64,000 nt of DNA from contig NZ_JAOWLC010000006.1 of assembly GCF_025751535.1 (NCBI RefSeq), positions 1-64,000 of the forward strand. The letters are read 5' to 3'. Numbering within the stretch: the stretch's first letter is position 1; each line of letters starts with the position of its first letter. Positions 1 to 13,726 of the stretch are shown here, in pieces. This DNA comes from Lentibacter sp. XHP0401. Its GTDB lineage: Bacteria > Pseudomonadota > Alphaproteobacteria > Rhodobacterales > Rhodobacteraceae. Both the position numbers and the translations under genes were made by a program. The notes under the pieces were generated by a model, which ran no database searches, was not told the origin of the DNA, and saw only the letters and a program-made list of their open reading frames with translations.

Positions 1-87
1 ACACCCCCCCCCCCCCTGCCCCCACCCACCCCACCCCAACAAACCCCCCCCGGGGGGGGGGGCGGCCCCCCCCCCCCCCCCCCCCCC
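1..87. other. Low-complexity C/G homopolymer at window edge
   Basis: Almost only C, then a G run, then C again (C run about 66-87), with no codon structure. It looks like a contig-end sequencing or assembly artefact rather than genomic sequence. Normal sequence begins at about 88, so the 5' flank of the first gene is only about 77 reliable bases. Confidence 0.7.
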
Positions 88-152
88 AACGCATCACAAT
101 AGCTGAATCCTCTTGTCAGCGGGGTAATTTTCATTACCATGTTAACAAAACA

Positions 153-158
153 AAGGAG
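153..158 (+). promoter_or_regulatory. Ribosome binding site of the first gene
   Basis: AAGGAG lies 6 bases before the ATG at 165. It fixes the start of the decarboxylase against an overlapping out-of-frame ATG at 139. Confidence 0.7.
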
Positions 159-164
159 CCAAAC

Positions 165-1574
165 ATGCGCTGGACTGATTTTCCCAAATGGGGCCGCTAC
201 GTGGCCGATTGGGCCGCCGAGTATCACGGCTCCCTGCGCCAGCGCCCCGTGCGTGCACAAACCAAACCTGGCGAAATCGCAGCCCAACTGGCCCCCGCGG
301 CCCCCGAACAAGGCCAGCCTGTCGACGAGGTGATCAAGGATTTCGAACGCATCGTCATGCCCGGTATCACCCACTGGCAACACCCGCGTTTCTTTGCTTA
401 CTTCCCCTCCAACGCCTCGCCCGCTGCCGTGCTCGCGGATTTCTTCACAACGGTCATGGCCCCGCAATGTATGCTCTGGCAAACCTCGCCCGCCGCCACC
501 GAAATGGAAACCCGCATGATGGACTGGCTGCGCGACGCGCTTGGCCTGCCGCAAGCCTTCCACGGCGTCATTCAGGACAGCGCCAGCGGAGCCACACTCG
601 CCGCCGTGCTCACCATGCGCGAACGCAGCCTCAACTGGGCCGGCAATCAGGATGGCCTGTCAGACCAACCCCGCCTGCGCATCTATGCTTCCGAGGAGGT
701 CCATACCTCGGTTGACCGCGCGATCTGGATTTCGGGCATCGGCCAAAATAACCTTGTCCGCATCCCCACCCAAGGCCCGATGCGCGCCATGGACCCCGCC
801 AAGCTCGACGCCGCCATCAAGGCTGACATCGACGCAGGGTATCTCCCCGCTGGCGTCATCGCCTGCACCGGCGGCACAGGCACAGGCGCTTGCGATGACA
901 TTTCCGCCACCTGCGATGTCGCCGCCGCCCACGGGCTTTACACCCATGTCGATGCGGCCTGGGCAGGCTCGGCCATGCTCTGCGAAGAGTTCCGCACGCT
1001 CTGGAAAGGCGTAGAGAAAGCCGACAGCGTAGTGCTCAACCCCCACAAATGGATGGGCACACAGTTTGACCTCTCCGCCCATTTCGTGCGCGCGCCGGAA
1101 GACCTCACCCGCACCCTGGCAATCCAGCCCGAGTATCTGAAAACACACGGAAAAGACGGGATCATAAACTACTCCGAATGGTCTGTCCCCCTCGGCCGCC
1201 GCTTCCGTGCACTGAAACTCTGGTTTCTCTTCCGCACCTATGGCCTTGAAGGCCTGCGCACCATGCTGCGCAACCATGTGACATGGTCCGAAGAGCTCTG
1301 CGAGCGCTTCCGCACCACACCCGACTTCGAGATTGTCACAGAACCGGTGCTCTCGCTCTTCACCTTCCGCTATGCACCCAAAGGCGCAAGCGATCTTGAC
1401 GCGCTCAACCAGCGCCTTGTCGATGTAGTGAATGACGATGGCCGCATCTACATCACCCAAACCCGCACCAAAGGCGCGCTTGTCATCCGCTTTCAGGCAG
1501 GCCAGTTTGAAGCAACCCGCGACGATGTGATGACCGCCTACGACGTGATCACCGAACTCGCAGCCACTCTTTAA
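165..1574 (+). CDS. Pyridoxal-5'-phosphate-dependent group II decarboxylase (aromatic-L-amino-acid decarboxylase family)
   Basis: 469-residue cytosolic enzyme of fold type I. The PLP-binding lysine is Lys295 in NPHKWMG, and the cofactor-ring aspartate is Asp263 in HVDAAWAG. The N-terminal stretch HPRFFAYFPSNASPAAVLAD and the SGATLAAV segment are typical of aromatic amino acid decarboxylases. Length fits the family (about 470-480). Expected activity is decarboxylation of an aromatic L-amino acid to its amine; the exact substrate cannot be read from sequence. The HpaI-type aldolase starts 10 bases after its stop, so the two are likely cotranscribed. An amine product would fit the amine-processing cluster downstream, but that link is inference. 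Confidence 0.88.
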   Translation: MRWTDFPKWGRYVADWAAEYHGSLRQRPVRAQTKPGEIAAQLAPAAPEQGQPVDEVIKDFERIVMPGITHWQHPRFFAYFPSNASPAAVLADFFTTVMAPQCMLWQTSPAATEMETRMMDWLRDALGLPQAFHGVIQDSASGATLAAVLTMRERSLNWAGNQDGLSDQPRLRIYASEEVHTSVDRAIWISGIGQNNLVRIPTQGPMRAMDPAKLDAAIKADIDAGYLPAGVIACTGGTGTGACDDISATCDVAAAHGLYTHVDAAWAGSAMLCEEFRTLWKGVEKADSVVLNPHKWMGTQFDLSAHFVRAPEDLTRTLAIQPEYLKTHGKDGIINYSEWSVPLGRRFRALKLWFLFRTYGLEGLRTMLRNHVTWSEELCERFRTTPDFEIVTEPVLSLFTFRYAPKGASDLDALNQRLVDVVNDDGRIYITQTRTKGALVIRFQAGQFEATRDDVMTAYDVITELAATL

Positions 1575-1584
1575 GGAGACACCT

Positions 1585-2358
1585 ATGCCAGCGCCCCACA
1601 ACCCTTTCAAAGCCGCTCTGAAAGCGGGTAAAAAACAGCTTGGCTGCTGGTCGAGCTTTGCACACCCCTACCCCGTCGAAATGGTCGCGACAGCGGGCTT
1701 TGACTGGATCGTGATCGACGGCGAACACGCCCCGAACGATCTGCAAACCATCACTGCACAGTTGCAAGTGCTCGATGGCAAACACTCCCACGCTGTTGTG
1801 CGTATCCCGACAGGCAACGACTGGCTTGTGAAACAGGTGCTCGACGCAGGCGCGCAAACTGTCCTTGTGCCGATGGTCGACACGGCCGAACAAGCGGCGC
1901 AACTCGTGCGTGCCATGCGCTACCCGCCGCACGGCATCCGCGGCGCAGGCGCGGCAGGTGCCCGGGCTTCTCACTTCGGCTCGATCACAGATTATGTCCA
2001 AACAGCCAACGATCAGGTCTGTTTGCTGGTGCAGGTCGAAACCCGCCTCGGCATGGAAAACCTCGATGCGATCCTGCAGGTTGAAGGCGTCGATGGTGTC
2101 TTTATCGGCCCTGCTGATCTGGCTGCCGATATGGGCTATCCGGGCAATTCGGCAGCCGACGAGGTGAAATCCGCAATTAAGGATATGCTCACCCGCATCG
2201 GCGCATCGGACAAAGCCGCAGGCATCCTCGGCGTGAGCGAAGCGGCAACGCAGGACTACGCCGATTGGGGCGCGCAGTTCCTTGCCGTGGGTGTTGATGT
2301 GGGTGTGTTCACCAAGGCGATCCGCGATCTTGAGGGGCAATGGCGCTCGCGCATCTGA
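1585..2358 (+). CDS. HpcH/HpaI family aldolase (2-keto-3-deoxy sugar acid / HKHD aldolase-like)
   Basis: 257 residues, class II metal-dependent pyruvate aldolase fold. Visible motifs are VIDGEHAPND with the catalytic His48, VQVET with the metal-binding Glu, and GVFIGPADLAADMG with the metal-binding Asp. The family cleaves 4-hydroxy-2-oxo acids to pyruvate plus an aldehyde (HpaI, GarL and RhmA are relatives that sequence alone does not separate). RBS AAGGAGA precedes the ATG. It sits 10 bases after the decarboxylase and before a GntR regulator, so it probably belongs to a small catabolic operon. Confidence 0.85.
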   Translation: MPAPHNPFKAALKAGKKQLGCWSSFAHPYPVEMVATAGFDWIVIDGEHAPNDLQTITAQLQVLDGKHSHAVVRIPTGNDWLVKQVLDAGAQTVLVPMVDTAEQAAQLVRAMRYPPHGIRGAGAAGARASHFGSITDYVQTANDQVCLLVQVETRLGMENLDAILQVEGVDGVFIGPADLAADMGYPGNSAADEVKSAIKDMLTRIGASDKAAGILGVSEAATQDYADWGAQFLAVGVDVGVFTKAIRDLEGQWRSRI

Positions 2359-2362
2359 TTTC

Positions 2363-2445
2363 GAATTGCGCTGCGCGCAATCCGACCAAGAGCGAGGGGG
2401 CCAGCCCCCTCGCGCTCCCCCAAGGCATTTTGGAACAGAAGAAGC
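2363..2445. repeat. Paired-hairpin intergenic repeat, copy 1
   Basis: Two consecutive stem-loops. ATTGCGC (2365-2371) pairs with GCGCAAT (2375-2381) over a 3-base loop. Then GCGAGGGGG (2392-2400) pairs with CCCCCTCGC (2405-2413) over CCAG. The spacer TCCGACC between the hairpins is shared with the copy at 53441, where the first stem has the same geometry. It lies between the aldolase and the GntR gene and could also act as a terminator, although no T-tract follows. Confidence 0.6.
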
Positions 2446-2511
2446 ATATTTAATGCGTCTTTGAATATTTACTGTCTGGACTAAAATCTGAATTTGCGCC
2501 AGTTTGGGCCT

Positions 2512-3162
2512 ATGGCTGGCCAAACTGAAACCATCATCAGCGCAATTCTGCGCGACATCGAAACAGGAGCTTTGCGCCCCGGTGATTTCATTGAAGACGG
2601 CGCCATCATGGCACTACATGATGTGTCTCGCACACCTGTGCGCGAAGCGCTGATCCAGCTCGAAACCTCGGGGCTTGTCGAACGTGTCGCGCGCAAGGGA
2701 GCGGTTGTGTTCCGCCCGACACTGGAGCAGTTTCTGGCCATTCTGGAAGTGCATGCCAAGCTGGAAGGTCAGGCCGCCGGGCTCGCGGCGCGCAGGCTTT
2801 CAAACACCCATGCGCAGGCTCTGGAGGCGGCGGTTACAGCCTGTGAGGCACATGCACAAAAACATGGAGACGGCGCGCCCGACGCATACTACCAGCTCAA
2901 CATGGACTTTCACCGCGTGGTGGCAGAAGCCGCCGGCAATCCCTATTTGCTCGAGATGATCAAAACCAACGCACGCAAGCTCATGGCCTATTACCGCGCG
3001 CGATATCACTACAAAGGCGTCATCGCGACTTCTGCCAAAGAACACCGTGTCATCGCCGATCTTATCTTCGCGCGCGAGGCCATCGAAGCCGAAACCGCCA
3101 TGGAGCGCCATGTGAGCTTTGACCATGTCACAGCACTTGATCTTCTCGCAGCGTTAAGCTGA
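2512..3162 (+). CDS. GntR family transcriptional regulator, FadR/FCD subfamily
   Basis: 216 residues from ATG 2512; an in-frame TTG at 2494 would add six residues. The N-terminal winged helix covers about residues 5-70 and includes LRPGDFIEDGAIMALHDVSR and TPVREALIQLETSGLVER. A C-terminal all-helical FCD effector domain follows (about 80-205), with metal-ligand positions typical of the family (DFHRVVAEAAGN and SAKEHRVIADLI). Such proteins usually repress neighbouring catabolic genes and respond to a carboxylic acid effector. The 3' end overlaps the convergent amidotransferase by 9 bases. Likely regulates the decarboxylase/aldolase genes or the P450 cluster; which one is not visible. Confidence 0.85.
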   Translation: MAGQTETIISAILRDIETGALRPGDFIEDGAIMALHDVSRTPVREALIQLETSGLVERVARKGAVVFRPTLEQFLAILEVHAKLEGQAAGLAARRLSNTHAQALEAAVTACEAHAQKHGDGAPDAYYQLNMDFHRVVAEAAGNPYLLEMIKTNARKLMAYYRARYHYKGVIATSAKEHRVIADLIFAREAIEAETAMERHVSFDHVTALDLLAALS

Positions 3163-3834
3163 CTTTCCCTCTAAAAACAAGGCCATACGTTCCGCCATAC
3201 CGGTCATGTCCGCAGGTCCGACCATAGAGGCCCGCGCCGCTTCTGTAACGGCAAGCGGCAGTTCACTCGCCAGTTCCTCAACCAGTGCCGCCATAAAATC
3301 GGGCTCCATCTCGGGGTGATACTGCGTGGTCATGATCCGTCCGATCTGAAAGCCCCCCACAGGGCAACCCGGGCCTGTTGCGATCACGTCTGCTCCTTCC
3401 GGAAGCCGCGAAACCTGCTCGATATGCGAGGCGTAAAGTGGCAGGCGCGCCTCGCCCAGATTAACGTCAACAAGGCCATGCACCCAGCCGTCAGGGTTGC
3501 GGCTCACCTCGCCACCCAGAGCCTTGGCAATCGCCTGATGCCCGAAACACGCACCAATCATCGGCACATCTGCGGCATATATTTCGCGGATCACTTCTAA
3601 TAACCGCGCCACCCAAGGCGCATCGGAATTCACCGAAGAGGGAGACCCTGTAATCATCACACCGTCAATGCCGTCAAGACTTTCGGGAAAGACCCCATCC
3701 TTCACCTCATAGGCCGTAAAGCACCAGTCGGGCCGCACTCTCCGCATCATCGAGGGAAACTTCTCGCCATCCTTTGGCCAAGCCTGCGCAAAGGTGCTTT
3801 CGTCGGTGTTTGTCACCAGAACCGCAATGTGCAT
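3154..3834 (-). CDS. Class I glutamine amidotransferase-like hydrolase
   Basis: 226 residues. The start is the ATG at 3834, preceded by GAGGAG, rather than a longer in-frame start at 3849. The GATase-1 triad is complete: Cys96 in GACFGHQ, His173 and Glu175 in QYHPEME. It is a stand-alone domain of the GMP-synthase-like type with no synthetase partner domain. Divergently transcribed from the P450/ligase/ferredoxin genes with an 87-base shared promoter region. In aniline (AtdA2) and isopropylamine pathways, similar free-standing amidotransferases hydrolyse gamma-glutamyl amides; given the ligase next door the same role is inferred here. Confidence 0.85.
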   Translation of the reverse strand: MHIAVLVTNTDESTFAQAWPKDGEKFPSMMRRVRPDWCFTAYEVKDGVFPESLDGIDGVMITGSPSSVNSDAPWVARLLEVIREIYAADVPMIGACFGHQAIAKALGGEVSRNPDGWVHGLVDVNLGEARLPLYASHIEQVSRLPEGADVIATGPGCPVGGFQIGRIMTTQYHPEMEPDFMAALVEELASELPLAVTEAARASMVGPADMTGMAERMALFLEGKSA

Positions 3835-3921
3835 CGGGTATCTCCTCAAAGATTCTTCTTTACATATTTATATGCCCTCATAATATACTTAACAAGTGAA
3901 ACTGGAAGTGAGGCTGCCCCT

Positions 3922-5178
3922 ATGACTGTCTGGACACCAACCGATGACGGCTACGCCGACCTTTCAAGCCACGACACATTCGAGCAAGGCGCACCGCACA
4001 ACACCTTCAAACGCCTGCGCGATGAAGACCCTGTGAGCTGGACCGAGTATGAAGGCGGTGAAAATTACTGGTCCGTCACCCGCCAGGCCGACATTCTGGA
4101 AATGAACCGCAATACAGCTGTCTTTTCCTCCGCGCGCGGCATCCGCATGGAAGACCAATCATATGAGGAATACCTCGCGCGCCGCACCTTTCAGGAAACC
4201 GACGCGCCAGAGCATATGAAAACCCGTATCAAGGTGGCCAAGGCCTTTTCCAAGCCTGTGATCGCGCAGTTCGAACAAGAGATAGGCACGCTCTGCGACG
4301 AAATCCTCGATGAAGCTCTCAGCGAAGACAGCTTTGACGCCACCAAGACAATCGCCCGCGAGCTGCCCATGCGCATGCTCGGGCGCATCCTCGGCCTGCC
4401 TGAAAAAGACCTGCCGTGGCTGGTCGAAAAGGGCGACGCTCTCATCGCCAACACGGACCCGGACTTTACAGACCATGTGCTCGACAAAATGCAGACCGAC
4501 GAGTTCCGCATGATGCCGTTCAACTCCCCCGCAGGCGCCGAGCTTTACCTCTATGCCAAAGACCTCATGGCGCAGAAAGAAGCAGCAGGCGACACAGAGG
4601 GCGTGCTGCACATGATCCTGCAGCCCGACAAGGACGGTAACACCATCTCGCAGGAAGAGTTTCGCAACTTCTTCTGCCTTCTCGTCGCGGCAGGCAACGA
4701 CACCACACGCTACTCGATCGCCGCAGGCATTCAGGCCATGTGCCACCAGCCCGAGCTGCTTGGCCAGATGCAAACCGGCGATATCTGGGCCACAGCGCCC
4801 GACGAAATCATCCGCTGGGCCACCCCTGCGCTCTACTTCCGCCGCACCGCCGCGCAAGACTATGAGGCGCACGGCAAAACCATTCGCGAAGGCGACAAGG
4901 TGCTCTTCTGGTGGAGTTCAGGCAACCGCGACGAACGCGCCTTTGATGCGCCCATGCGTGTGAACCTTGCGCGTGAGAACAACCGCCACGTCAGCTTCGG
5001 CCAAGGCGGCCCGCACGTCTGCCTCGGCATGTGGCTGGCGCGGCTCGAAGTGCGGGTTCTGTTTCAAAAGCTTGCCAAACGCATCTCGCATATCGAAGCT
5101 GACGGAGAGCATAAATTCCTGCGTTCGAATTTCGTCGGCGGGATCAAATCACTGCCCGTTCGCATCAAGCGTGCCTGA
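3922..5178 (+). CDS. Cytochrome P450 monooxygenase
   Basis: 418 residues from ATG 3922, with a GA-rich ribosome-binding region upstream; an in-frame extension to 3829 lacks P450 similarity. The oxygen-binding I-helix motif is AAGNDTTR (256-263), the K-helix has EIIR, and the heme loop is FGQGGPHVCLG with proximal Cys367. The extra residue in the heme loop is normal in CYP124/125/142-like bacterial P450s. Soluble, class I type needing a ferredoxin; a 2Fe-2S ferredoxin is encoded two genes downstream. No ferredoxin reductase is in the window. First gene of a P450-ligase-ferredoxin operon; substrate unknown, possibly a gamma-glutamyl amide. Confidence 0.92.
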   Translation: MTVWTPTDDGYADLSSHDTFEQGAPHNTFKRLRDEDPVSWTEYEGGENYWSVTRQADILEMNRNTAVFSSARGIRMEDQSYEEYLARRTFQETDAPEHMKTRIKVAKAFSKPVIAQFEQEIGTLCDEILDEALSEDSFDATKTIARELPMRMLGRILGLPEKDLPWLVEKGDALIANTDPDFTDHVLDKMQTDEFRMMPFNSPAGAELYLYAKDLMAQKEAAGDTEGVLHMILQPDKDGNTISQEEFRNFFCLLVAAGNDTTRYSIAAGIQAMCHQPELLGQMQTGDIWATAPDEIIRWATPALYFRRTAAQDYEAHGKTIREGDKVLFWWSSGNRDERAFDAPMRVNLARENNRHVSFGQGGPHVCLGMWLARLEVRVLFQKLAKRISHIEADGEHKFLRSNFVGGIKSLPVRIKRA

Positions 5179-5199
5179 TAGACACAAGAGAGAAACATC

Positions 5200-6489
5200 A
5201 TGAAAGACCGCCTCCGCGCCCTCTTCTGCGACCACCTTTCCATCATGCGGGGCAAATACCTGCCCGGCAGCAAGATCGCCGATGCCAGCACGCGCTTCTG
5301 CCGCTCCACCTTCGGGGTGCATTACGACAAGGATCTGCTCAACGCGCCGGGCGCCATGATGATGCAAGGCCTGCCCGACATGGAGCTGAAGTGGAAAGCG
5401 CAAGAGGTGCGAGAGAGCTGGGATGAAAACACCAAGATCGTTCTGGGCGATCTCTACGACCACGAAGGCGAGCCGCTCGCGCTCTGCCCGCGTGGCGCAC
5501 TCAAACGCGCTGTGGCGACTTGGGAGGCCAAAGGCCTCACCCCGAAAGTCGGCATAGAGCTGGAATGTTTCGCGCTCCAGACCGACGAAATGGGCCGCAT
5601 CATTCCCTACGATGCCCCCGGCGGTGTGGTCTATGGCACAGGTCCGTTTTCCGACCCCCTGCGCTTTAACGATGCCATCTGGGAAGAAGCCGAACGCCTC
5701 GGCTTCCGACTTGAGATGATCACATCGGAGTTTGACAACCCGCAGTTCGAATATGTGCTCACCTTCGACGATGCCGTGAAAGCCGTCGATGATATCGTGC
5801 TCTTCCGCCTCATGGCGCGCGAAATCGCGCTGGAGCATGGCGTGTTGCTCAGCTTCATGCCCAAACCTCTGGCCGAAGCGGGCGGCTCGGGTATGCACAT
5901 CAACTTCTCCTTCACGGACAAAAGCGGCAAGAACGCGCTGTCTTCGGGCGAAAAAGGCGGCCCCGCACATATGAATGATCTGGCAAAAGGTTGCCTCGCA
6001 GGGCTGCTGGAGCACCACAAAGGCCTCGCGGGCCTCATCGCGCCCTCCGCCAACAGCTACCAGCGGCTCCAGCCGGGGTCGCTCTCGGGCTTCTGGAAGA
6101 ACTGGGGGGGCGACCATCGTAATGTCACCACACGCATCAGCTCGGAAGGTGGCGTGAAAGCGCGGCTTGAGCACCGCATGGCCGATGCTTCTTCCAACCC
6201 CTACACCAGCACAGCCGCCGTGCTGCAGGCCAGCCTTCTGGGGCTGGAAAACGGCTATACCCTACCGCCAATGGAAACAGGCGACGGGTTTGAGAAAACC
6301 GATGCTAAGGTCAGCACCGCGATGGACCTCAAAGGCGCAACGGCAGACCTTAAGGCCGACACAGCACTGTGCACGGCCGTCGGCGAGGCGCTTTGCGCCA
6401 ACCACATCTACATGAAAGAACAGGAAGTGAAGAAGACCCGCGATCTGGAAGGCGACGCCCTACGCGACTTCTATGTGCACTTCATCTAA
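5200..6489 (+). CDS. Glutamine synthetase-like gamma-glutamyl-amine ligase
   Basis: 429 residues of the glutamine synthetase fold. The catalytic core shows GIELECF (metal ligands Glu120, Glu122), GGSGMHINFSF (229-238), NSYQRLQPGS (285-294) and RLEHRMADASSNPY. Where true glutamine synthetases have the GSGMHxH pattern, this has His233 followed by Ile-Asn, and no adenylylation-site segment is evident. It therefore belongs with the GS-like ligases that couple amines to glutamate (PuuA, GmaS, IpuC, AtdA1 types) rather than housekeeping GlnA. RBS GAGAG before ATG 5200, 21 bases after the P450 stop. Amine substrate not determinable from sequence. Confidence 0.85.
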   Translation: MKDRLRALFCDHLSIMRGKYLPGSKIADASTRFCRSTFGVHYDKDLLNAPGAMMMQGLPDMELKWKAQEVRESWDENTKIVLGDLYDHEGEPLALCPRGALKRAVATWEAKGLTPKVGIELECFALQTDEMGRIIPYDAPGGVVYGTGPFSDPLRFNDAIWEEAERLGFRLEMITSEFDNPQFEYVLTFDDAVKAVDDIVLFRLMAREIALEHGVLLSFMPKPLAEAGGSGMHINFSFTDKSGKNALSSGEKGGPAHMNDLAKGCLAGLLEHHKGLAGLIAPSANSYQRLQPGSLSGFWKNWGGDHRNVTTRISSEGGVKARLEHRMADASSNPYTSTAAVLQASLLGLENGYTLPPMETGDGFEKTDAKVSTAMDLKGATADLKADTALCTAVGEALCANHIYMKEQEVKKTRDLEGDALRDFYVHFI

Positions 6490-6501
6490 AGGGAGAAACC
6501 T

Positions 6502-6816
6502 ATGAACGTGACTTGGAAACTGCCCGACGGAAGCGAGATTTCGGCAGATGTGGCCGATGGAACCAACATGATGGAAGCCGCCGTGGCCAACAATGTGCCA
6601 AACGTCATCGGCGAATGCGGCGGCTCTTTGGCCTGCGCCACCTGCCACGTCTATGTCGATGAGGCTTGGGTCGGAAAAACAGGCTCTGTTGAAGACTTTG
6701 AAGACGCCATGCTCGACGCCACCGAAGCCGAACGCGAGCCAAACTCGCGCCTGTCCTGCCAGATCGTCGCGTCAGATGATCTGGACGGGCTCATGCTGAT
6801 CGTGCCGCAGGCGTAG
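6502..6816 (+). CDS. 2Fe-2S ferredoxin, adrenodoxin type
   Basis: 104 residues. The cluster ligands are Cys39, Cys45, Cys48 and Cys86, the C-x5-C-x2-C-x37-C pattern of vertebrate/bacterial adrenodoxin-type ferredoxins that feed class I P450s. It starts 12 bases after the GS-like gene with GGGAG as RBS, so P450, ligase and ferredoxin form one operon. It is the expected electron donor for the P450; the reductase must lie elsewhere. Confidence 0.92.
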   Translation: MNVTWKLPDGSEISADVADGTNMMEAAVANNVPNVIGECGGSLACATCHVYVDEAWVGKTGSVEDFEDAMLDATEAEREPNSRLSCQIVASDDLDGLMLIVPQA

Positions 6817-6825
6817 GTTTCGAAG

Positions 6826-6895
6826 CAAGTGCGATGACCGACAGAGCGCACTTGTTGCGCGGAGTCGGTGGGATATTTTCAGCAAGAAAAGGAAC
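6826..6895. repeat. Hairpin and partial intergenic repeat after the ferredoxin gene
   Basis: CAAGTGCG (6826-6833) pairs with CGCACTTG (6847-6854). The tail GGGATATTTTCAGCAAGAAA resembles the tail of the paired-hairpin repeat at 53441. It could end the P450 operon transcript, though no T-tract directly follows the stem. Confidence 0.4.
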
Positions 6896-6982
6896 CCCGC
6901 GGGGATCGCATTTGCGCAGGGGCTTTCGCTATTCACAAAATTAGTTTAGATTAACGAAAAACTACATTCGGGAATCCTGAAC

Positions 6983-8194
6983 ATGAGCACTTATACTCCT
7001 TCCGTCTATGATGCCGAGCCTATCCCCGCTGCAGCCCGTGCCGAGATTGAAAAGCTTTTGGGCTCAGGAGATCTCTTCCGATACACAGCACCGGAAGACG
7101 CGCCTGTCGCGCTTTTGGAGCGGGAATTCGCCGATCTTCTCGGCGCGAAATATGCACTGGCTGTGTCCTCTTGCTCGGCCGCGCTTTTTCTCTCGCTAAA
7201 GGCGCTGAACCTGCCCCGCGATGCACGCGTGCTGATCCCTGCGTTTACCTTTGCCGCCGTGCCTTCTTCGGTCATCCATGCCGATTGCGTGCCTGTGCTC
7301 TGCGAAGTGGGCGAGAATTACCGCGTTGATATGGCCGATTTCGAAGCCCGGCTGGATGACAATATCCAAGCCGTGATCATCTCCCACATGCGTGGTCATA
7401 CCTCGGATATGGACGCAATCATGGCGCTTTGTGATGCACGAGACATCCCCGTGATCGAGGATGCAGCGCATAGCCTTGGCACCACATGGCATGGCCGCAA
7501 CATCGGCACGATCGGGCGTATTGGCTGTTTTTCCTTCCAGTCCTATAAGCTTGTCAACGCAGGTGAAGGTGGCATCCTTGTCACTGATGATGCCGATCTG
7601 CTCGCTCAAACTGTCATCATGTCAGGCGCTTACGAGCACAACTGGCGCAAACATGGCGCAATTGATGAAGCCCTCGAGGCCGCCTTTGCACGCTGGCAAA
7701 ACCACCTGCCGCTTTATAACCTGCGTCTGGGAAATCTATCCGCCGCCGTGATCCGCCCGCAACTGCCACTTGTGGCCGAGCGCGTCACCAAAGGCCGTGC
7801 CAACCATGATTATGTCGCAGCACAGCTTGAGCAAAGCCCCTGGTTCACTGTGCCTGACAAGCTCGCCCCCGAAGAGCGTGCGCCTGACAGCATCCAGTTC
7901 AACCTTGTGAACATGAGCGATGAAGACACCCGCGCCTTTGCAGATGCCGCCGCCACCCGCGGCATCAAAGTGCAGGTCTTCGGAATGAGCACCGACAACG
8001 CCCGCGCCTTCTGGAACTGGAAGTTCATCAAAGGCGAACCCCCCGTTTTACCAAAAACCCGCGCTATGCTGATGCGCGCCTGTGATGCCCGTCTGCCAGC
8101 ACGGCTCACCCGTGAGCAACTTGATGTTGTGGTAGAGGCGCTTCTGGAGGCTGTGAATGAAGTCAAAGGCGCGCCTGCCCTCAAAGCAGGCTGA
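6983..8194 (+). CDS. DegT/DnrJ/EryC1/StrS family PLP-dependent aminotransferase
   Basis: 403 residues. The fold type I signature is present: the PLP-ring aspartate in VIEDAAHS (Asp160) and the internal-aldimine lysine in FSFQSYKLVNAGEGG (Lys189). Family members transaminate keto-sugars or cyclitols, but no sugar-nucleotide genes are nearby. A role in the adjacent amine pathway is possible but not shown. It is 166 bases downstream of the ferredoxin, so probably a separate transcript, and its 3' end overlaps the convergent LysR gene by 14 bases. Confidence 0.87.
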   Translation: MSTYTPSVYDAEPIPAAARAEIEKLLGSGDLFRYTAPEDAPVALLEREFADLLGAKYALAVSSCSAALFLSLKALNLPRDARVLIPAFTFAAVPSSVIHADCVPVLCEVGENYRVDMADFEARLDDNIQAVIISHMRGHTSDMDAIMALCDARDIPVIEDAAHSLGTTWHGRNIGTIGRIGCFSFQSYKLVNAGEGGILVTDDADLLAQTVIMSGAYEHNWRKHGAIDEALEAAFARWQNHLPLYNLRLGNLSAAVIRPQLPLVAERVTKGRANHDYVAAQLEQSPWFTVPDKLAPEERAPDSIQFNLVNMSDEDTRAFADAAATRGIKVQVFGMSTDNARAFWNWKFIKGEPPVLPKTRAMLMRACDARLPARLTREQLDVVVEALLEAVNEVKGAPALKAG

Positions 8195-9146
8195 CCATCC
8201 CTTTGGCATAGGGAAAGGCTTCAAGCGCCGGAGCAATCACCGTCTGCTCCAATATGGGGCGCAGCTTGTCGGCCATGCCGGCGGGCATATCCTGCAAAAT
8301 ACCCTCTCGCGCGGTCAGGCTGATACGCCGCGAGAGCGGCTCGAACGGCAGCGCCATCACATCGATCTTGGGTGCAAAACGGCGCGCCCGCATCAGCGCC
8401 AGCGGCGTGAGGATGGTCCAGCCCGCCCCCTGACCGACAAGCGCCAGAATGGCATGGTAGCTATCCAGCTCGAAGCGGTGCGAAAGCCGCAGGTTCTGGC
8501 GCGACAAATGACTGGCAATCAACCGCCCCATATGATGCCGCGATGTATACTGGATAAGCGGCATCCGCTTTAACTGGCGCAGCACATCCCCTTTGCGGTC
8601 CACCGCCCCCTTGGGCGCGGCCACCACAAAACCGTCCTCGAGCAACGGATGCACTTCCATCCCGCTCAGCGCCTCGCCCATCTCAGCGGCAACGATCACA
8701 TCCAAAGCACGTGCATCAAGCTGGTCATGAAGAAAATGGCTCGCGCCCGTCTCAAGCAAGAACTGACAGGTCTTAAGCTCGTCCGCCATACGGGTAAGAA
8801 GTTGTGGCGTCACATCAAGTTCGAAGTCTTCGATCATACCCATCCGCAGCCGTGTCAGCGCCCGCAGATCGCTCATCGCAAGTTCCGCACGCGCCTGCTC
8901 GGCCTCGTTCATGATATTCTGCGCGCGGCGCCGAAAAATCTCACCCGCAGGGGTGAGCAAAACAGGCCGCGCATTGCGCAGAAGCAATGTCACCCCCATC
9001 GCGCCCTCAAGGTTGGTGAGTTGCTGGCTCACAGCCGAAGGGCTCGCCCCCAAACGGCGTGCCGCCGCGGTGATCGAGCGCTCCTCGGCCGTGGCAATAA
9101 ACACCTCGACTCCCCAAAGCGTAATGCGGCCCGCACTGTCGGCCAT
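8181..9146 (-). CDS. LysR family transcriptional regulator
   Basis: 321 residues. The N-terminal winged helix is typical (SITAAARRLGASPSAVSQQLTNLE, about residues 24-47), followed by a periplasmic-binding-like effector domain (about 95-300). It starts only 6 bases after the phaR stop on the same strand, so it may be read from the phaR transcript. Its target is not obvious; both the convergent DegT aminotransferase and the PHA genes are candidates. Confidence 0.88.
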   Translation of the reverse strand: MADSAGRITLWGVEVFIATAEERSITAAARRLGASPSAVSQQLTNLEGAMGVTLLLRNARPVLLTPAGEIFRRRAQNIMNEAEQARAELAMSDLRALTRLRMGMIEDFELDVTPQLLTRMADELKTCQFLLETGASHFLHDQLDARALDVIVAAEMGEALSGMEVHPLLEDGFVVAAPKGAVDRKGDVLRQLKRMPLIQYTSRHHMGRLIASHLSRQNLRLSHRFELDSYHAILALVGQGAGWTILTPLALMRARRFAPKIDVMALPFEPLSRRISLTAREGILQDMPAGMADKLRPILEQTVIAPALEAFPYAKGMVSLL

Positions 9147-9152
9147 AGCGTG

Positions 9153-9722
9153 TTACTTGCCCATCTTTGAAAGTTTTGCCTGAAGCGCGGCCAGCTCGGC
9201 CTTGATATCATCAAGGTCTTCACCGCTGTCATCCTCCTGCTCCGGCTCTTCCGCCACAGGACCTGTGCTGCCAAAGCCGCCCGACATTCCGCCTGTCATC
9301 GCTTTCAGGAAAGCTTCCTGCTGCGCCTTCATTGCCTCAAACCCGGGCATCTGGCCCAGCGGACCAAGGCTGCCGCCCATATTCTTCATCATCTTATCCT
9401 GCCCCTCGCGGAGCATATCAAAGCTGGCTTGCAAAAATTCGGGCATCATCTGTGTCGCCTGGTTGGTGTAGCTGCGCACAATGTCATTGAGCACAGAAAC
9501 CGGCAACATATTCTCGCCACGGCTCTCGTGGTCGGCAATGATCTGAAGGAGATACTGGCGCGTCAGGTCATCACCTGACTTCAGATCGACAATCTGCACC
9601 TCGCGCCCGTCCCGGATAAACGCTGCAATATCATCAAGCGTCACATAGTCGGATGTTTCAGTGTTATAAAGTCTGCGGCTTGCATACCGCTTGATCAGTA
9701 AGGGTTTGTTCGCCTCGTTCAC
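9153..9722 (-). CDS. phaR: Polyhydroxyalkanoate synthesis regulator PhaR
   Basis: 189 residues from a GTG start at 9722, chosen because GGGAGGA lies 7 bases upstream; the longer in-frame extension to 9812 runs through the phaP terminator. The N-terminal PHB/PHA DNA-binding domain is clear (KRYASRRLYNTETSDYVTLDD, YLLQIIADHE), followed by the PHB accumulation domain (SFDMLREGQDKMMKN). The C-terminus is acidic with a short coiled coil. PhaR represses phasin genes and is released by binding nascent PHA granules. A CTGC-N3-GCAG palindrome sits 27 bases upstream of the start, suggesting autorepression. Confidence 0.94.
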   Translation of the reverse strand: MNEANKPLLIKRYASRRLYNTETSDYVTLDDIAAFIRDGREVQIVDLKSGDDLTRQYLLQIIADHESRGENMLPVSVLNDIVRSYTNQATQMMPEFLQASFDMLREGQDKMMKNMGGSLGPLGQMPGFEAMKAQQEAFLKAMTGGMSGGFGSTGPVAEEPEQEDDSGEDLDDIKAELAALQAKLSKMGK

Positions 9723-9748
9723 GCCTTGATCCTCCCAAATGAGCCGCG

Positions 9749-9759
9749 CTGCAGTGCAG
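9749..9759. promoter_or_regulatory. Candidate PhaR operator upstream of phaR
   Basis: CTGC-AGT-GCAG, a perfect palindrome of the CTGC-N3-GCAG form reported for PhaR in Rhodobacter. It lies between the phaP terminator and the phaR start, the position expected for autoregulation. Confidence 0.65.
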
Positions 9760-9774
9760 CTTAGGCGAGTGCTG

Positions 9775-9811
9775 AACAAAAAGAAAGAGCGGGCCGCAAT
9801 GGACCCGCTCA
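9775..9811 (-). terminator. Rho-independent terminator of phaP
   Basis: Read on the minus strand, GAGCGGG (9804-9810) pairs with CCCGCTC (9787-9793) and is followed by a T-rich run (TTTCTTTTT). It lies 56 bases beyond the phaP stop and separates phaP from phaR. Confidence 0.8.
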
Positions 9812-9865
9812 AGAGTTGAGCGCAACGAGAATGGGAGGAGACTGTCGCGCTCGATCTGTGTCAGC

Positions 9866-10315
9866 TTACTTCGCTGGTGCAGTCGCTTTTTTCGCAGCAG
9901 CTGTCATGTCTTCAGTCGCTTTTTTCACGGCTGTTGACGCTTCTTCCGAAGCTGATTTGCCGGCTGCCATCATGAGCTCAACTGTTTCGAGTTGAACTTT
10001 TTTCGCGACTTCTGCGAAGGCTGCGAGGTTTTCTGATGCAACTTCAGCTTGAGCTGAGGCGAAATCTGTAATCGCTTTTGCGTAATCGGCAGGCTCGGCT
10101 TTGGCCTTTGACATGTCGCCAAGTTTGGCAAGTGTCTCAGAAGTCCATTTTGTCGAGATCGCGGCTGATTTTTCAGCTGCGTCAAGTGCCAGTGAAGAGA
10201 ACTTTTCGCCAAGCTCGGCTTGGTTTTTGAAAGAGCCTTCGAAAGCTTTTGTGTCTACCGGAAATGCGCCCATCATGTCTTTGAGTGTCGCTGTGAAATC
10301 TTGTGCTTTAGCCAT
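9866..10315 (-). CDS. phaP: Phasin (PHA granule-associated protein)
   Basis: 149 residues from ATG 10315 with AAAGGA as RBS. A small, Ala/Lys-rich, helical protein of the Phasin_2 type: amphipathic helices through the middle and a C-terminal KKATEDMTAAAKKATAPAK tail. Phasins coat PHB granules in the cytoplasm. It sits between phaR and phaC, with a strong terminator behind it and three CTGC/GCAG palindromes in its 5' region. Family expectation is strong induction during PHB accumulation. Confidence 0.88.
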   Translation of the reverse strand: MAKAQDFTATLKDMMGAFPVDTKAFEGSFKNQAELGEKFSSLALDAAEKSAAISTKWTSETLAKLGDMSKAKAEPADYAKAITDFASAQAEVASENLAAFAEVAKKVQLETVELMMAAGKSASEEASTAVKKATEDMTAAAKKATAPAK

Positions 10316-10390
10316 TGTATAGGTCCTTTGAGTTGGGTGGCCTATCAAGCAGAAAGGCCTAAGTTGTTTTCGCGTCTGACAGATATATAC

Positions 10391-10407
10391 ATGCCGCAAC
10401 GCAGCAT
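10391..10407. promoter_or_regulatory. Imperfect PhaR operator, phaP-proximal
   Basis: ATGCCGC-AAC-GCAGCAT matches the extended palindrome with one mismatch (CCGC in place of CTGC). It is the closest of three sites to phaP, about 77 bases before its start. Confidence 0.45.
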
Positions 10408-10420
10408 TTCAAGTCTTTTT

Positions 10421-10431
10421 CTGCATTGCAG
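10421..10431. promoter_or_regulatory. PhaR operator, middle site
   Basis: CTGC-ATT-GCAG, a perfect CTGC-N3-GCAG palindrome about 106 bases upstream of phaP. Confidence 0.65.
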
Positions 10432-10481
10432 CAAAAAAGCTTACCTAAGGTCGAACCCTTGTTTCAAAGGGCATCAACGAA

Positions 10482-10498
10482 ATGCTGCATCGCAGCAT
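10482..10498. promoter_or_regulatory. PhaR operator, distal extended palindrome
   Basis: ATGCTGC-ATC-GCAGCAT has perfect 7-base arms with the CTGC-N3-GCAG core at 10485-10495. It lies between the phaC stop and the phaP promoter region. Confidence 0.65.
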
Positions 10499-10530
10499 AT
10501 CTCCCAAAGACTGAAAACAGCTTACCCGAC

Positions 10531-12324
10531 TCAGACCTCGGGTTTCAAAACAACATAGGTCCCGGGTGCGTCGCACAAAGGCTCATAACCCTTCCCGCCC
10601 ACATCCCGCGCCGCAATCATCTGACCCGAGCGTTTGCTCAGCCAGCTTTCCCAACGTGGCCACCATGACCCCTCATGGAAATGCGCGCCCTCCCACCAGT
10701 CGGCCGCCGTTTCCGGCAAGTCTTCGTTGGTGTAATGGCCGTATTTCTTCTTGCTCGGCGGATTGACCACCCCCGCAATATGCCCCGACTGGCTCACCAC
10801 AAAGGTCTTGTTCTTCGCCCCCGTCATACCGAAGCCACGGTAACAGTCGCGCCATGCAGCGATATGGTCGGTCTCGCAGGTCACCGCAAAAAGCGGAATC
10901 TCGACATCGCTCACATGCAGCCGCTCTCCCAAAAGCTCATAGCCATCACTCACAAAGGCGTTCTTCTGGCAAAGCCCGCGCAGATACTCCATAACCATCG
11001 TCCCAGGCAAATTGGTCGCATCGCCGTTCCAATAGAGCAAATCAAATGCGGGCGGCGTCTCGCCCATCATATAAGATTTGATGGCAGGCCCGTAGACCAG
11101 ATCATTGGAGCGCAAAAAACTCATGGTGCGCGACATAATAACCGAGCGCAGCACACCGTAGTTGCCGACTTCTTCCTCGATTCCATCGACAAAATCATCC
11201 TGTAAGAAGGGCGTAAACTCCCCCTGCTCGCCAAAATCGGTCAGCGCTGTGAAGAATGTCGCGGATTTCACCGATTTATCGCCCTTGGCCTTCATATATG
11301 CGAGCGTCAGGTGCAGGGTTGTGCCCGCAATACAGTATCCCACCGTATTCACCTGCTTTTCCCCGGTAATCTCCTTCACCACGCCAATCGCTTCAAGAAA
11401 GCCGTTCTCTATATAGTCCGCCATGCCCCAGTTGCCCTGCTCGCGGCCCGGATTGCGCCAGCTGACCACAAACAAGGTATAGCCCTGCTCGGTGATCCAT
11501 TTGATCAGGCTGTTCTGTTCCTTAAGGTCAAGGATGTAGAATTTATTGATCCACGGAGGAAAGATAATCAGCGGTGTCTTGTGCACCTCCTCGGTGCGCG
11601 CCTTATACTGGATCAGTTCCAGCATTTCGTTACGAAACACCACACTTCCCTCGCTTGTCGCGACATTGCGGCCAAGCTCGAAGGCGGTCTCGTCACACAG
11701 CTTCACCAAAAGCTCGCCGTCATTGGCCTCCATATCGGCCACAAGGTTTTCAAGCCCGCGCACAAGGCTCTCGCCCTCTGTCTGCACCGCCCGTTCAAGC
11801 GCATCGGGGTTCGTGCTCAGAAAATTCGTGGGCGCAAGCATCGCAATAATCTGCTCAGAAAAATACCCGAGCCGCCGTTTGTCTGTTTCGCTCAGGTCAT
11901 CCACATTCGCGACAGCGTCACGGATGGCATCGGAATTGATCAGATACTGTTGCTTCACAAAGTTGAAATAAGGGTGGCTCTGCCAAAGCGGATTGCTAAA
12001 GCGCTTGTCACTCTCCGTGCGGTCTTCGGGCGCCTTGAGCCCCTCTTTCATGAAAGCTTCCTGAGCTTCCATGAAATGCTGCACAGATTTCCCCCAATAC
12101 TCGAACTGCTTCTCATATATGCGTTGGGGGTTTTCCATCATCTCGGCCCAATAGTTCACCGCAACCTGCGTCATCAACTCGGGGCCAGGGCCGTTCAGCG
12201 TCGGGTTCACGGGTTTCCGCGCGCCGATTACCCGCATCAAACGCTCGGTAAGCTCTTCAACCCGTTTCAAATTTGCTTGCATTTTGTCAAGATTTTCACC
12301 CGAGACATCTTCTTTTGTTGTCAT
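10531..12324 (-). CDS. phaC: Class I poly(3-hydroxyalkanoate) synthase
   Basis: 597 residues. The lipase-like box GYCIAG contains the catalytic Cys331; the aspartate in CETDHIAAW and the histidine in SQSGHIAGV complete the triad. The N-terminal PhaC_N domain (about 80-250) and the length fit class I enzymes, which polymerise (R)-3-hydroxybutyryl-CoA on the granule surface without a PhaE subunit. Transcribed divergently from phaZ over a 112-base region with a PhaR-type palindrome 26 bases before the phaC start. No phaA or phaB is in the window. Confidence 0.96.
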   Translation of the reverse strand: MTTKEDVSGENLDKMQANLKRVEELTERLMRVIGARKPVNPTLNGPGPELMTQVAVNYWAEMMENPQRIYEKQFEYWGKSVQHFMEAQEAFMKEGLKAPEDRTESDKRFSNPLWQSHPYFNFVKQQYLINSDAIRDAVANVDDLSETDKRRLGYFSEQIIAMLAPTNFLSTNPDALERAVQTEGESLVRGLENLVADMEANDGELLVKLCDETAFELGRNVATSEGSVVFRNEMLELIQYKARTEEVHKTPLIIFPPWINKFYILDLKEQNSLIKWITEQGYTLFVVSWRNPGREQGNWGMADYIENGFLEAIGVVKEITGEKQVNTVGYCIAGTTLHLTLAYMKAKGDKSVKSATFFTALTDFGEQGEFTPFLQDDFVDGIEEEVGNYGVLRSVIMSRTMSFLRSNDLVYGPAIKSYMMGETPPAFDLLYWNGDATNLPGTMVMEYLRGLCQKNAFVSDGYELLGERLHVSDVEIPLFAVTCETDHIAAWRDCYRGFGMTGAKNKTFVVSQSGHIAGVVNPPSKKKYGHYTNEDLPETAADWWEGAHFHEGSWWPRWESWLSKRSGQMIAARDVGGKGYEPLCDAPGTYVVLKPEV

Positions 12325-12349
12325 CTTAACAAAATTCCCCTATCTTTTT

Positions 12350-12360
12350 CTGCAACGCAG
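12350..12360. promoter_or_regulatory. PhaR operator in the phaC-phaZ divergent promoter
   Basis: CTGC-AAC-GCAG, a perfect palindrome 26 bases upstream of phaC and 77 bases upstream of phaZ. It could control either promoter or both. Confidence 0.6.
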
Positions 12361-12436
12361 CATAGTCTTTATGCCAGCACAGTAACATTACTAAGGTAGC
12401 CTTTCAGGTCACCCAACTCAAAACAAGGACGTCCAA

Positions 12437-13726
12437 ATGCGCTTTATGGCCAGCTACGACTTCATGGAATCGTTTCGCAATGCCAATCAATGGTTCGGCG
12501 CAACCGCCCAGTCCTTTGCATCCTACCCCGCTTTTGCTCTGGCTCCAAACCCTGCTTTTCAATGGATCGCAGCTTGGGGCGAAGTCACCGAGCGCAGCTT
12601 CGAGCGCATGGTCGCCAAGCCCGACTGGGGCATCGACACATTCACCTGCGAAGATGGCAAAGATCACCTCGTCAAAGTTGAAAAAGTCGTTGAGCGCCCC
12701 TTTGGAGATCTGATCCACTTCAATGTCACAGGCCGCGAGAAAGCGCCGCGCAAGGTGCTTATCGTCGCGCCCATGTCGGGCCACTACGCAACGCTTCTGC
12801 GCTCCACCGTCAAAAGCCTCATCCGTGACTGTGAAGTCTATATCACCGACTGGCACAATGCCCGCGATATCCCCGTCTCCGAAGGCAAGTTCGATATCGA
12901 GGACTACACTCTTTACCTCGTTGATTTCATGCGCGAGCTCGGCCCCGACACCCATGTCATCGCCGTGTGCCAGCCCGTGCCCCTCACGCTGGCCGCCACA
13001 GCCTATCTCGCCGAGATCGAGCCCGATGCACAGCCCCGTTCGCTCACGCTCATCGGCGGCCCGGTTGACCCTGACGCAACGCCTACCGAAGTCACCGATT
13101 TCGGCCGCCGCGTCACCATGGGCCAGCTTGAAGAAAGCATGATCCAGCGGGTCGGCTTCAAATATGCCGGCGCTGGCCGCAAGGTCTATCCGGGCCTGTT
13201 GCAGCTTTCTTCCTTCATCTCGATGAATGCCGAGAAACACGCCAAAGCCTTCACAGATCAAATCTCCCGTGTCGCCAAAGAAAAGGCAGGAGATCACGAC
13301 AAGCACAATAAATTCTACGATGAATACCTCGCCGTTATGGATATGACCGCAGAGTTTTATCTCTCCACGGTGCACCGCATCTTCAAAGAGCGCGAAATAG
13401 CGAAAAACGAGTTTATCGTTGCAGGCCACAAGGTCGATATCGGCAAGATCACAACAGTTGCCGTCAAAACTGTCGAAGGCGAAAAAGACGATATCTCCGC
13501 CCCCGGCCAGTGTATCGCCGCGCTTGCCCTCTGCACGGGCCTGCCCGACAGCAAAAAAGCCTCACACGTTGAGCCGGGCGCTGGCCACTACGGCATCTTC
13601 GCAGGCAAAAGCTGGCGCAACAATATCCGCCCGCTTGTGCTCGACTTTATAGATGCAAACTCCGAAGCACCTGCGAAAGCTGCCAAAAAAGCCGGTAATA
13701 AGCCCGCCAACACAAACGCGGCCTAA
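12437..13726 (+). CDS. phaZ: Intracellular PHA depolymerase
   Basis: 429 residues from ATG 12437 with AAGGACG upstream. An alpha/beta hydrolase in which the nucleophile is Cys178 in VCQPVPLTLAA, the arrangement of intracellular PhaZ enzymes that act on native PHB granules; no signal peptide. A C-terminal Ala/Lys-rich tail follows the ...EPGAGHYGIF... histidine region. It mobilises stored PHB and is paired head-to-head with phaC, so synthesis and breakdown share a regulatory region. The stop overlaps a small convergent ORF by two bases. Confidence 0.93.
   Translation: MRFMASYDFMESFRNANQWFGATAQSFASYPAFALAPNPAFQWIAAWGEVTERSFERMVAKPDWGIDTFTCEDGKDHLVKVEKVVERPFGDLIHFNVTGREKAPRKVLIVAPMSGHYATLLRSTVKSLIRDCEVYITDWHNARDIPVSEGKFDIEDYTLYLVDFMRELGPDTHVIAVCQPVPLTLAATAYLAEIEPDAQPRSLTLIGGPVDPDATPTEVTDFGRRVTMGQLEESMIQRVGFKYAGAGRKVYPGLLQLSSFISMNAEKHAKAFTDQISRVAKEKAGDHDKHNKFYDEYLAVMDMTAEFYLSTVHRIFKEREIAKNEFIVAGHKVDIGKITTVAVKTVEGEKDDISAPGQCIAALALCTGLPDSKKASHVEPGAGHYGIFAGKSWRNNIRPLVLDFIDANSEAPAKAAKKAGNKPANTNAA

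Follow-up and report, generated by a model that had tools for sequence, protein, structure and literature searches.

Among the closest described systems is ipu of Arthrobacter aurescens TC1, for which the available part of the published account describes a gamma-glutamyl pathway with a multicomponent cytochrome P450, the amine being glutamylated, hydroxylated by the P450 and then released (PMC6776027). An aniline-type system, AtdA1A2/NpaA1A2, is treated in the accessible portion of PMC11335346, which also supplies the class name glutamyl-organic-amine synthases (GoaS). PipA/MorA clusters, as far as the available text of PMC9477822 goes, bring together a P450, a ferredoxin and a glutamine synthetase (GS) gene in proposed piperidine/morpholine degradation, with the GS discussed in terms of ammonium assimilation. 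The locus considered here lies in a 64,000-nucleotide window, the whole stretch of DNA that was analysed, from Lentibacter sp. XHP0401 (Rhodobacteraceae; genome G000 here), and the window starts at the first base of its contig (NZ_JAOWLC010000006.1, C25 in our numbering). The locus encodes a GS-like ligase, a class I glutamine amidotransferase-like protein (GATase), a P450 and a 2Fe-2S ferredoxin, together called the module in what follows, which a sequence-only reading had taken for a possible gamma-glutamylation-dependent amine oxidation system. All four open reading frames (ORFs) are present, intact and placed by Pfam in the families then named (Table 1). The ligase, the hydrolase and the gene order, examined in turn below, all speak for that logic, and as judged from sequence the oxidation is very probably dependent on gamma-glutamylation. 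On balance the module appears to be a catabolic one, in which a P450 oxidises a gamma-glutamylated arylethylamine of the tyramine or dopamine type and feeds homoprotocatechuate cleavage. The starting points for this proposal are the observed gene content, catalytic residues, conserved order and genomic association with HpaD and a decarboxylase.

The ligase is set apart from GS by both phylogeny and active-site residues. In a tree of 36 rows the 19 module ligases form a single clade (support 100/100), from which E. coli GlnA and the window genome's own GlnA are separated at 100/100 and a GlnT row at 98/75. This clade lies on the PuuA/IpuC/AtdA1 side of the tree, outside each of their branches, and its nearest group is made up of Streptomyces/Embleya ligases, which also stand beside a P450 (93/88, a moderate value); the deep branches among GoaS-type ligases are likewise of moderate support. 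In an alignment with GlnA, residues E120, E122, E177, E184, H233, R289, R307, E324 and R326 are invariant, which we take to be the metal, ATP and glutamate sites of the GS fold. The GlnA motifs FDGSS and GYEAP, of which the Asp of the first and the Glu of the second presumably form the ammonia site, are replaced by RFCRSTF and PGSLSG, and both motifs are also missing from the PuuA, IpuC and AtdA1-type rows. Such a pattern is as expected for a gamma-glutamyl-amine ligase rather than a GS. The tree called for by the sequence-only reading therefore gives no grouping with true glutamine synthetases, and on these residues and branches the protein is assigned outside that enzyme class; a separate GlnA-type gene is present elsewhere in the window genome (L001).

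The GATase carries the triad Cys96, His173 and Glu175 at exactly the positions earlier claimed for it, and the three residues are kept in all 66 GATases compared (57 from module loci, the other nine being that of the window and references). In the GATase tree the module proteins form a group with those of Sagittula and Novosphingobium humi (84/89), both of which likewise adjoin a GS-like gene and a P450 gene. The aniline-plasmid AtdA2-type protein falls outside this group, PuuD and the ipu GATase make a separate pair (100/99), and GuaA serves as the outgroup, with long branches leaving the deep order unsure. No grouping with GMP synthase is seen; the partners are GATases beside GS-like and P450 genes. 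The score against TIGR00888 is 65.5 bits for a cut-off of 172, and by sequence the protein is classed as not of the GuaA type.

In the P450 the I-helix reads AGNDT and an ExxR motif is present; its heme loop, FGQGGPHVCLG, is one residue longer than FxxGxxxCxG, so that the strict pattern finds no match; this 11-residue form occurs in 7/7 aligned sequences, that of the window included. A quick tree (SH-aLRT only) places 25 module P450s in one clade and nine actinobacterial P450s in another, the ipu P450 standing far off on a long branch of unsure placement. Residues E77, R87, E92, R196 and N249 are found in 34-37 of 37 rows and in at most two of nine other rows, the latter including the pTC1 ipu P450 and a Mesorhizobium P450, both near GS genes; these residues may be informative as a signature, as a suggestion only, and R401 and K409 are weaker. 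For 11 of the twelve best P450 records in a plasmid collection (H61-H72), a GS match lies no more than about 1 kb from the P450, as judged by position or, for H72, by tblastn; the remaining one, from Nonomuraea (H69), has none within 6 kb. Among five lower-ranked records (H73, H74, H77, H96 and H98) GS lies nearby only in Mesorhizobium loti, the others having no annotated GS in the stretch; this pML2037 locus (L279, 5974-13221) is a P450/GS cluster of another type (Table 1). The cysteines of the window's ferredoxin are at positions 39, 45, 48 and 86. In Ruegeria sp. TM1040 (L096, 10430-11176) the usual place of the ferredoxin gene is occupied by a gene for an FkbM-family methyltransferase.

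The arrangement is conserved well beyond the window, in which the P450, ligase and ferredoxin genes run in one direction, separated by 21 and 12 bp, and the GATase gene is divergent from that of the P450. A search of 394 genomes of the family (394 genera; threshold E <= 1e-60) finds the ligase in 73 genomes at 74 places, of which 60 were fetched (in stretches of 19 kb, shortened by contig ends to as little as 10 kb) and 14, including that of the window, were left out. Genes were counted in these loci by tblastn, the ORF map having mis-called several of them through shadow ORFs. Ligase identity in the 60 relatives is 46-83%. A P450 gene is found in 58 of the 60, each time directly upstream of the ligase gene on the same strand and less than 400 bp away, and a GATase gene in 57. 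The GATase gene precedes that of the P450 divergently in 49 loci and on the same strand in five, and in three it lies downstream of the ligase. Since the order repeats across so many relatives, the four-gene grouping is more than chance, and the doubt of the sequence-only reading as to whether it was unique to this contig is removed. GATase is missing from L067, L082 and L092. Named carriers are the megaplasmid of Ruegeria sp. TM1040 and two Tritonibacter mobilis records with P450 and ligase side by side. Beyond the family the P450 is sparse (11/385 genomes of the class, own included, and 5/398 of the phylum, own and two already seen included).

The proposed exit rests on a strong association with homoprotocatechuate genes. 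HpaD, scored with TIGR02295 over its cut-off, is found in 121 of the 394 family genomes. Of these, 63 are among the 73 that carry the module and 58 among the 321 that do not (Fisher p 1.8e-28, odds ratio 28.6). In 12 of these 63 module genomes HpaD is no more than 25 kb from the ligase, for about 0.8 expected if the mean genome is taken as 3.9 Mb. A second type of HpaD, the Fe/LigB type, presumably unrelated to the first in fold and scored with TIGR02298 over its cut-off, is present in seven of the ten module genomes that have no HpaD of the first type, as against one of 80 genomes (p 1.2e-7; two further weak matches) taken from the 263 with neither module nor HpaD. One or other type is thus encoded in 70/73 module genomes, the exceptions being G069 and G155, each in 300 or more contigs, and G181, which is 86% complete. 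The decarboxylase behaves similarly. In samples of 40 of the 73 module genomes and 40 of the 321 others, a homologue (P0006, E <= 1e-120) occurs in 36/40 and 11/40, respectively, whereas pcaH, a control gene from another aromatic pathway, shows no association with the module in the same 80 genomes (23/40 and 21/40). By hand count, the decarboxylase gene lies within 3 kb of that for HpaD in 15 of 31 sampled module genomes having both and in none of three without the module.

Physical linkage is seen in a smaller number of loci. The hpa genes, hpaD included, adjoin the module in four of the 60 (L061, L079, L082 and L091), and also in L260 and L261, both chosen for an HpaD already known nearby. 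The decarboxylase is linked in 9/60 loci and is enclosed by the hpa operon in L091, L261, L262 and L264, while an HpaI match occurs in 10/60. In L137 the module lies beside hpaI-H-G-D-E, with HpaD (389 bits, cut-off 321) and HpaE (755, cut-off 638) above the curated thresholds, HpaH (337 of 351.5) and HpaI (339 of 369) narrowly below and HpaG (165 of 276) well below. In L267 (9837-10679) and L269 (7790-8632) a LigB-family gene is found within the hpa operon beside a VOC-type HpaD gene, making two extradiol dioxygenase folds per operon (confirmed by Pfam in L267 and seen by tblastn in L269).

Other genes recur nearby. A class III transaminase is linked in 31/60 loci, TctA in 32/60, TctB and TctC in 33/60 and an aldehyde dehydrogenase (ALDH), for which PuuC is the best model (517 of 850 bits), in 25/60. 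A UPF0261/Tm-1-like protein recurs with TctCBA and the ALDH (L096, 18394-19287; L118; 20/60 module loci). The set of transaminase, IclR, TctCBA, ALDH and Tm-1-like protein was considered as part of the module proper and set aside; it is unlinked in the window genome, where it lies on contig C24 (L118), and the transaminase is also found on plasmids without a close module ligase. It is likely a partner of the module, not part of it. In the window genome HpaD is encoded at C3:90890-91771 (413 bits, cut-off 321.4), with hpaE, D, G and H together there (L259) and no HpaI match in the 19 kb fetched; an HpaI-like aldolase is encoded in the window, so named because its TIGR02311 score of 341.7 bits is below the equivalog cut-off of 368.8. 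A homologue (82%) of a flavin monooxygenase (FMO) that recurs beside the decarboxylase in relatives ends 334 bp before the end of contig C28 (L282). Both this end and the first 100 nucleotides of the window are rich in C/G homopolymers and resemble an assembly break, and because FMO and decarboxylase stand in that order in relatives the two contigs may be neighbours.

Clusters outside the family show the same enzymes in company with ring-cleavage genes. In the same-class loci L133, L134 and L136, catabolic genes, decarboxylase, P450, ligase and ferredoxin form one row, in the order ALDH, HpaD_Fe-like (LigB-type) extradiol dioxygenase, FAH-family enzyme, acetoacetate-decarboxylase-like enzyme, pyridoxal-phosphate (PLP) decarboxylase, P450, ligase and ferredoxin. 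The P450 is the sole oxygenase recognised in this run apart from the dioxygenase. L135 has the run minus the decarboxylase and plus a ferredoxin reductase, with a second, unrelated P450 about 2.5 kb upstream; ferredoxin reductase matches are present in the other three loci too. A further 81 actinobacterial loci (L149-L228 and L101) comprise that of Embleya and the best 80 of 571 loci in named genomes, these 80 being all actinobacterial as a result of this cut and of a query that started from the Embleya P450. The ligase is found in 76 of the 81, the HpaD_Fe-like dioxygenase in 65, the FAH enzyme in 66, the acetoacetate-decarboxylase-like enzyme in 74, the ferredoxin reductase in 56 and ALDH, at >=38% identity and so perhaps including other ALDHs, in 62. 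Of the five without a ligase match, three (L165, L183 and L217) run into a contig end on the ligase side and two (L156 and L208) do not. The clusters of Streptomyces, Actinomadura and other actinobacteria, which often include ferredoxin as well as reductase genes, are seemingly a parallel version of the pathway.

Taken together, the context supplies what the sequence-only reading had left unnamed, the amine, which is probably an arylethylamine, with homoprotocatechuate as the likely exit. In the pathway that we propose, the PLP decarboxylase would convert an aromatic amino acid to an arylethylamine such as tyramine, or the amine would be taken up. The GS-like ligase, to go by its residues and clade, would join the amine to L-glutamate at the expense of ATP, and the resulting gamma-glutamyl amide would be oxidised by the P450, its electrons coming through the 2Fe-2S ferredoxin and a reductase whose gene would lie elsewhere. 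Because the P450 is the only oxygenase besides the dioxygenase in the L133-type run, ring hydroxylation is the favoured step, for instance of gamma-glutamyl-tyramine to a product of the gamma-glutamyl-dopamine type, an assignment that we make tentatively. The amidotransferase would then remove glutamate and free the amine, which the class III transaminase and the ALDH (from a separate operon in the window genome) would carry to homoprotocatechuate for breakdown by HpaD, HpaE, HpaG, HpaH and HpaI, as their association with the module suggests. Plausibly, the glutamyl group blocks the amine, so that dopamine-type quinones cannot cyclise. A broader version of the proposal, more speculative still, is an undescribed arylethylamine route shared by two phyla and running through decarboxylation, gamma-glutamylation, P450 ring hydroxylation and extradiol cleavage, in which glutamate might both give the P450 a handle and shield the catecholamine from self-oxidation.

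A number of observations weigh against this pathway. Two loci, L067 and L092, have the ligase and no P450, and although the contig of L067 ends just past the ligase, the upstream side expected to hold the P450 is covered. A ferredoxin of the window type is found in 31/60 module loci and lacking in 29/60. The hpa operon of the window genome is unlinked to the module, and the association tests carry no correction for phylogeny. PaaA occurs in 5/60 loci, and in TM1040 it is paaABCD, not hpa, that adjoin the module; paa is an alternative exit, set aside as the main one. The best NCBIfam model for the decarboxylase is L-2,4-diaminobutyrate decarboxylase, at 133 bits for a cut-off of 900, and the presence of TctCBA near 33/60 modules suggests an anionic compound. 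The ring-cleavage version has a GAT-like gene in 10/81 loci from actinobacteria, and L133-L136 and L138 show none. Finally, there is no trade-off with the flavin enzyme HpaB (4-hydroxyphenylacetate 3-hydroxylase, PF03241), found in 6/40 module and 8/40 module-less HpaD genomes (p 0.77), and FMO, of the PRK08132 subfamily, adjoins the decarboxylase in 8/9 decarboxylase-bearing loci (it occurs in 9/60 loci, eight of them with the decarboxylase) and could itself hydroxylate the ring.

The P450 as a simple stand-in for HpaB was thus considered and is not supported. An HpaB match is absent from 66 of the 80 HpaD-bearing genomes tested; with HpaB rare in both sets, module-less genomes must use another hydroxylase, for which the FMO is a candidate.

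The strongest alternative, though an unlikely one, keeps the same substrates and has the P450 hydroxylate the carbon beside the nitrogen, the amide then splitting into an arylacetaldehyde and glutamine, with the amidotransferase acting as a glutaminase and the aldehyde passing by way of arylacetate to hpa or paa. This would account for linkage with both sets of genes, and it needs no ring-hydroxylating P450, in keeping with the HpaB result and with a flavin hydroxylase beside the decarboxylase. However, it would make the transaminase redundant, the actinobacterial and L133-type clusters hold ring-cleavage genes, mostly without GAT-like genes, and the L133-type run has no recognised oxygenase other than the P450 and the dioxygenase. 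Less probable again is a route for aliphatic amines after the model of ipu or puu, in which a gamma-glutamyl alkylamide would be hydroxylated by the P450 at a methyl or methylene group, and the amino alcohol or amino acid that results would pass to the class III transaminase and the PuuC-like ALDH. The ipu set of GS, P450, ferredoxin, reductase and GATase is a precedent, the transaminase and the ALDH with its PuuC best model do recur beside the module, and, among solved P450s, those closest in sequence belong to the CYP125/268/124 group, which we take to be lipid or sterol hydroxylases; yet this leaves both the HpaD association and the ring-cleavage genes within operons unexplained, and identity to the ipu enzymes is low.

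It is quite improbable that the module serves detoxification or nitrogen scavenging, glutamylation merely capping a toxic amine, environmental or made by the decarboxylase, while the P450 does an unrelated job. The available part of PMC10956863 reports a GS-like enzyme that serves survival when polyamines are in excess, but P450 and ligase genes are adjacent in 58/60 loci and occur together in 76/81 actinobacterial ones, with catabolic genes around them. An ordinary GS with chance neighbours, for which annotation at family level is the one argument, is scarcely credible given the lost ammonia-site residues, the separate clade, the conserved order and the GlnA-type gene elsewhere in the genome.

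The extent given to the cluster by the sequence-only reading, 3154..6816, places the four genes correctly and draws the upstream boundary too early, as the decarboxylase, aldolase and GntR genes recur with the module (Table 1).

Table 1. Genes of the module and its surroundings in the window, and of the P450/GS cluster of Mesorhizobium loti pML2037 (L279)
Feature	Coordinates	Strand	Details
PLP-dependent group II decarboxylase	165..1574	+	PF00282 315 bits
HpaI-like aldolase	1585..2358	+	TIGR02311 (HpaI) best of four models
GntR/FCD-family regulator	2512..3162	+	PF00392 and PF07729; linked in 35/60 loci
Class I glutamine-amidotransferase-like protein (GATase)	3154..3834	-	226 aa, ATG at 3834; PF00117 59.9 bits
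Cytochrome P450	3922..5178	+	418 aa, ATG at 3922; PF00067
Glutamine-synthetase-like (GS-like) ligase	5200..6489	+	429 aa; PF00120 (Gln-synt_C) 240 bits, E 4.7e-71
2Fe-2S adrenodoxin/Isc-type ferredoxin	6502..6816	+	PF00111 (Fer2); four Cys
DegT/DnrJ/EryC1-family aminotransferase	6983..8194	+	doubtful part; PF01041; linked in only 4/60 loci
M. loti L279: P450	5974-7227		
M. loti L279: 2Fe-2S protein	7224-8261		
M. loti L279: APC permease			
M. loti L279: GS	9880-11196		
M. loti L279: gamma-glutamyl-GABA-hydrolase-family gene	from 12720		

No ferredoxin reductase is found among the thirteen window proteins scanned (165-13726), the remaining genome not having been searched for one. A scan of positions 1-8300 for promoters and terminators gives three and eight sites, for shuffle means of 2.5 and 9.4. 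Further along, the window holds polyhydroxyalkanoate genes, encoding a polyhydroxybutyrate (PHB)-accumulation regulator (9153-9812), PhaC (10531-12324) and a PHB depolymerase-domain protein (12437-13726).

If the proposal holds, the marine Roseobacter group would be able to bring aromatic amino acids or biogenic amines into central metabolism by a route that relies on a P450 and on gamma-glutamyl protection, and scattered annotations such as 'glutamine synthetase family protein', 'glutamine amidotransferase' and 'cytochrome P450' would be joined into one testable pathway. The module also directs attention to a large set of parallel clusters in actinobacteria, Streptomyces among them. Among the literature matches listed, and as far as their titles and the starts of their abstracts go, no gamma-glutamyl P450 route for arylethylamines is described, most subscription journals lying outside that set.

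Comparison with the known systems bears out both the likeness and the distance. Like the module, the ipu cluster (Paenarthrobacter aurescens TC1 pTC1, L099) unites a GS-like ligase, a P450, a ferredoxin and a protein of class I amidotransferase fold. However, the P450s are only 27% and the ligases 28% identical and are not sisters in either tree, the ipu GATase pairs with PuuD, unlike that of the module, and the ferredoxin gene is of 207 bp, as against 315 bp in the window. The ipu cluster has its own ferredoxin reductase, whereas that of the window is without one, and no hpa, decarboxylase or TctCBA gene is annotated in the pTC1 stretch, in contrast to the surroundings of the module. The aniline-type cluster of Comamonas pI2 (L106) likewise combines ligase, class I GATase and oxygenase, its GATase being 40% identical over 154 residues to that of the module and its ligase only 22%. 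Its oxygenase is a Rieske ring-hydroxylating dioxygenase with a reductase, where the module has a P450, and the amine nitrogen of its substrate sits on the aromatic ring. For PuuA, PuuD, PuuC and PuuE of the E. coli Puu pathway (L102), many genomes hold functional counterparts close to the module, but the PuuB oxidase is replaced by P450 and ferredoxin, the context is aromatic and PuuD is far from the module GATase. The PipA/MorA clusters, with P450s of the CYP151 family, are likened to the module by their published description, not by sequence.

The HpaBC route leads from 4-hydroxyphenylacetate to homoprotocatechuate. The hpa meta-cleavage pathway is represented by HpaD, HpaE, HpaG, HpaH and HpaI-like genes beside the module in several genomes, and the difference lies in the feed, which would be a gamma-glutamylated amine, not 4-hydroxyphenylacetate by way of HpaBC. 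The P450 variant of the gamma-glutamyl logic that the sequence-only reading put forward fits the locus well; the general scheme of glutamylation, P450 oxidation and release is not in itself new, since ipu, in the available part of its description, precedes it (PMC6776027). What is new here is another enzyme set in another genomic context, acting probably on another class of substrate.

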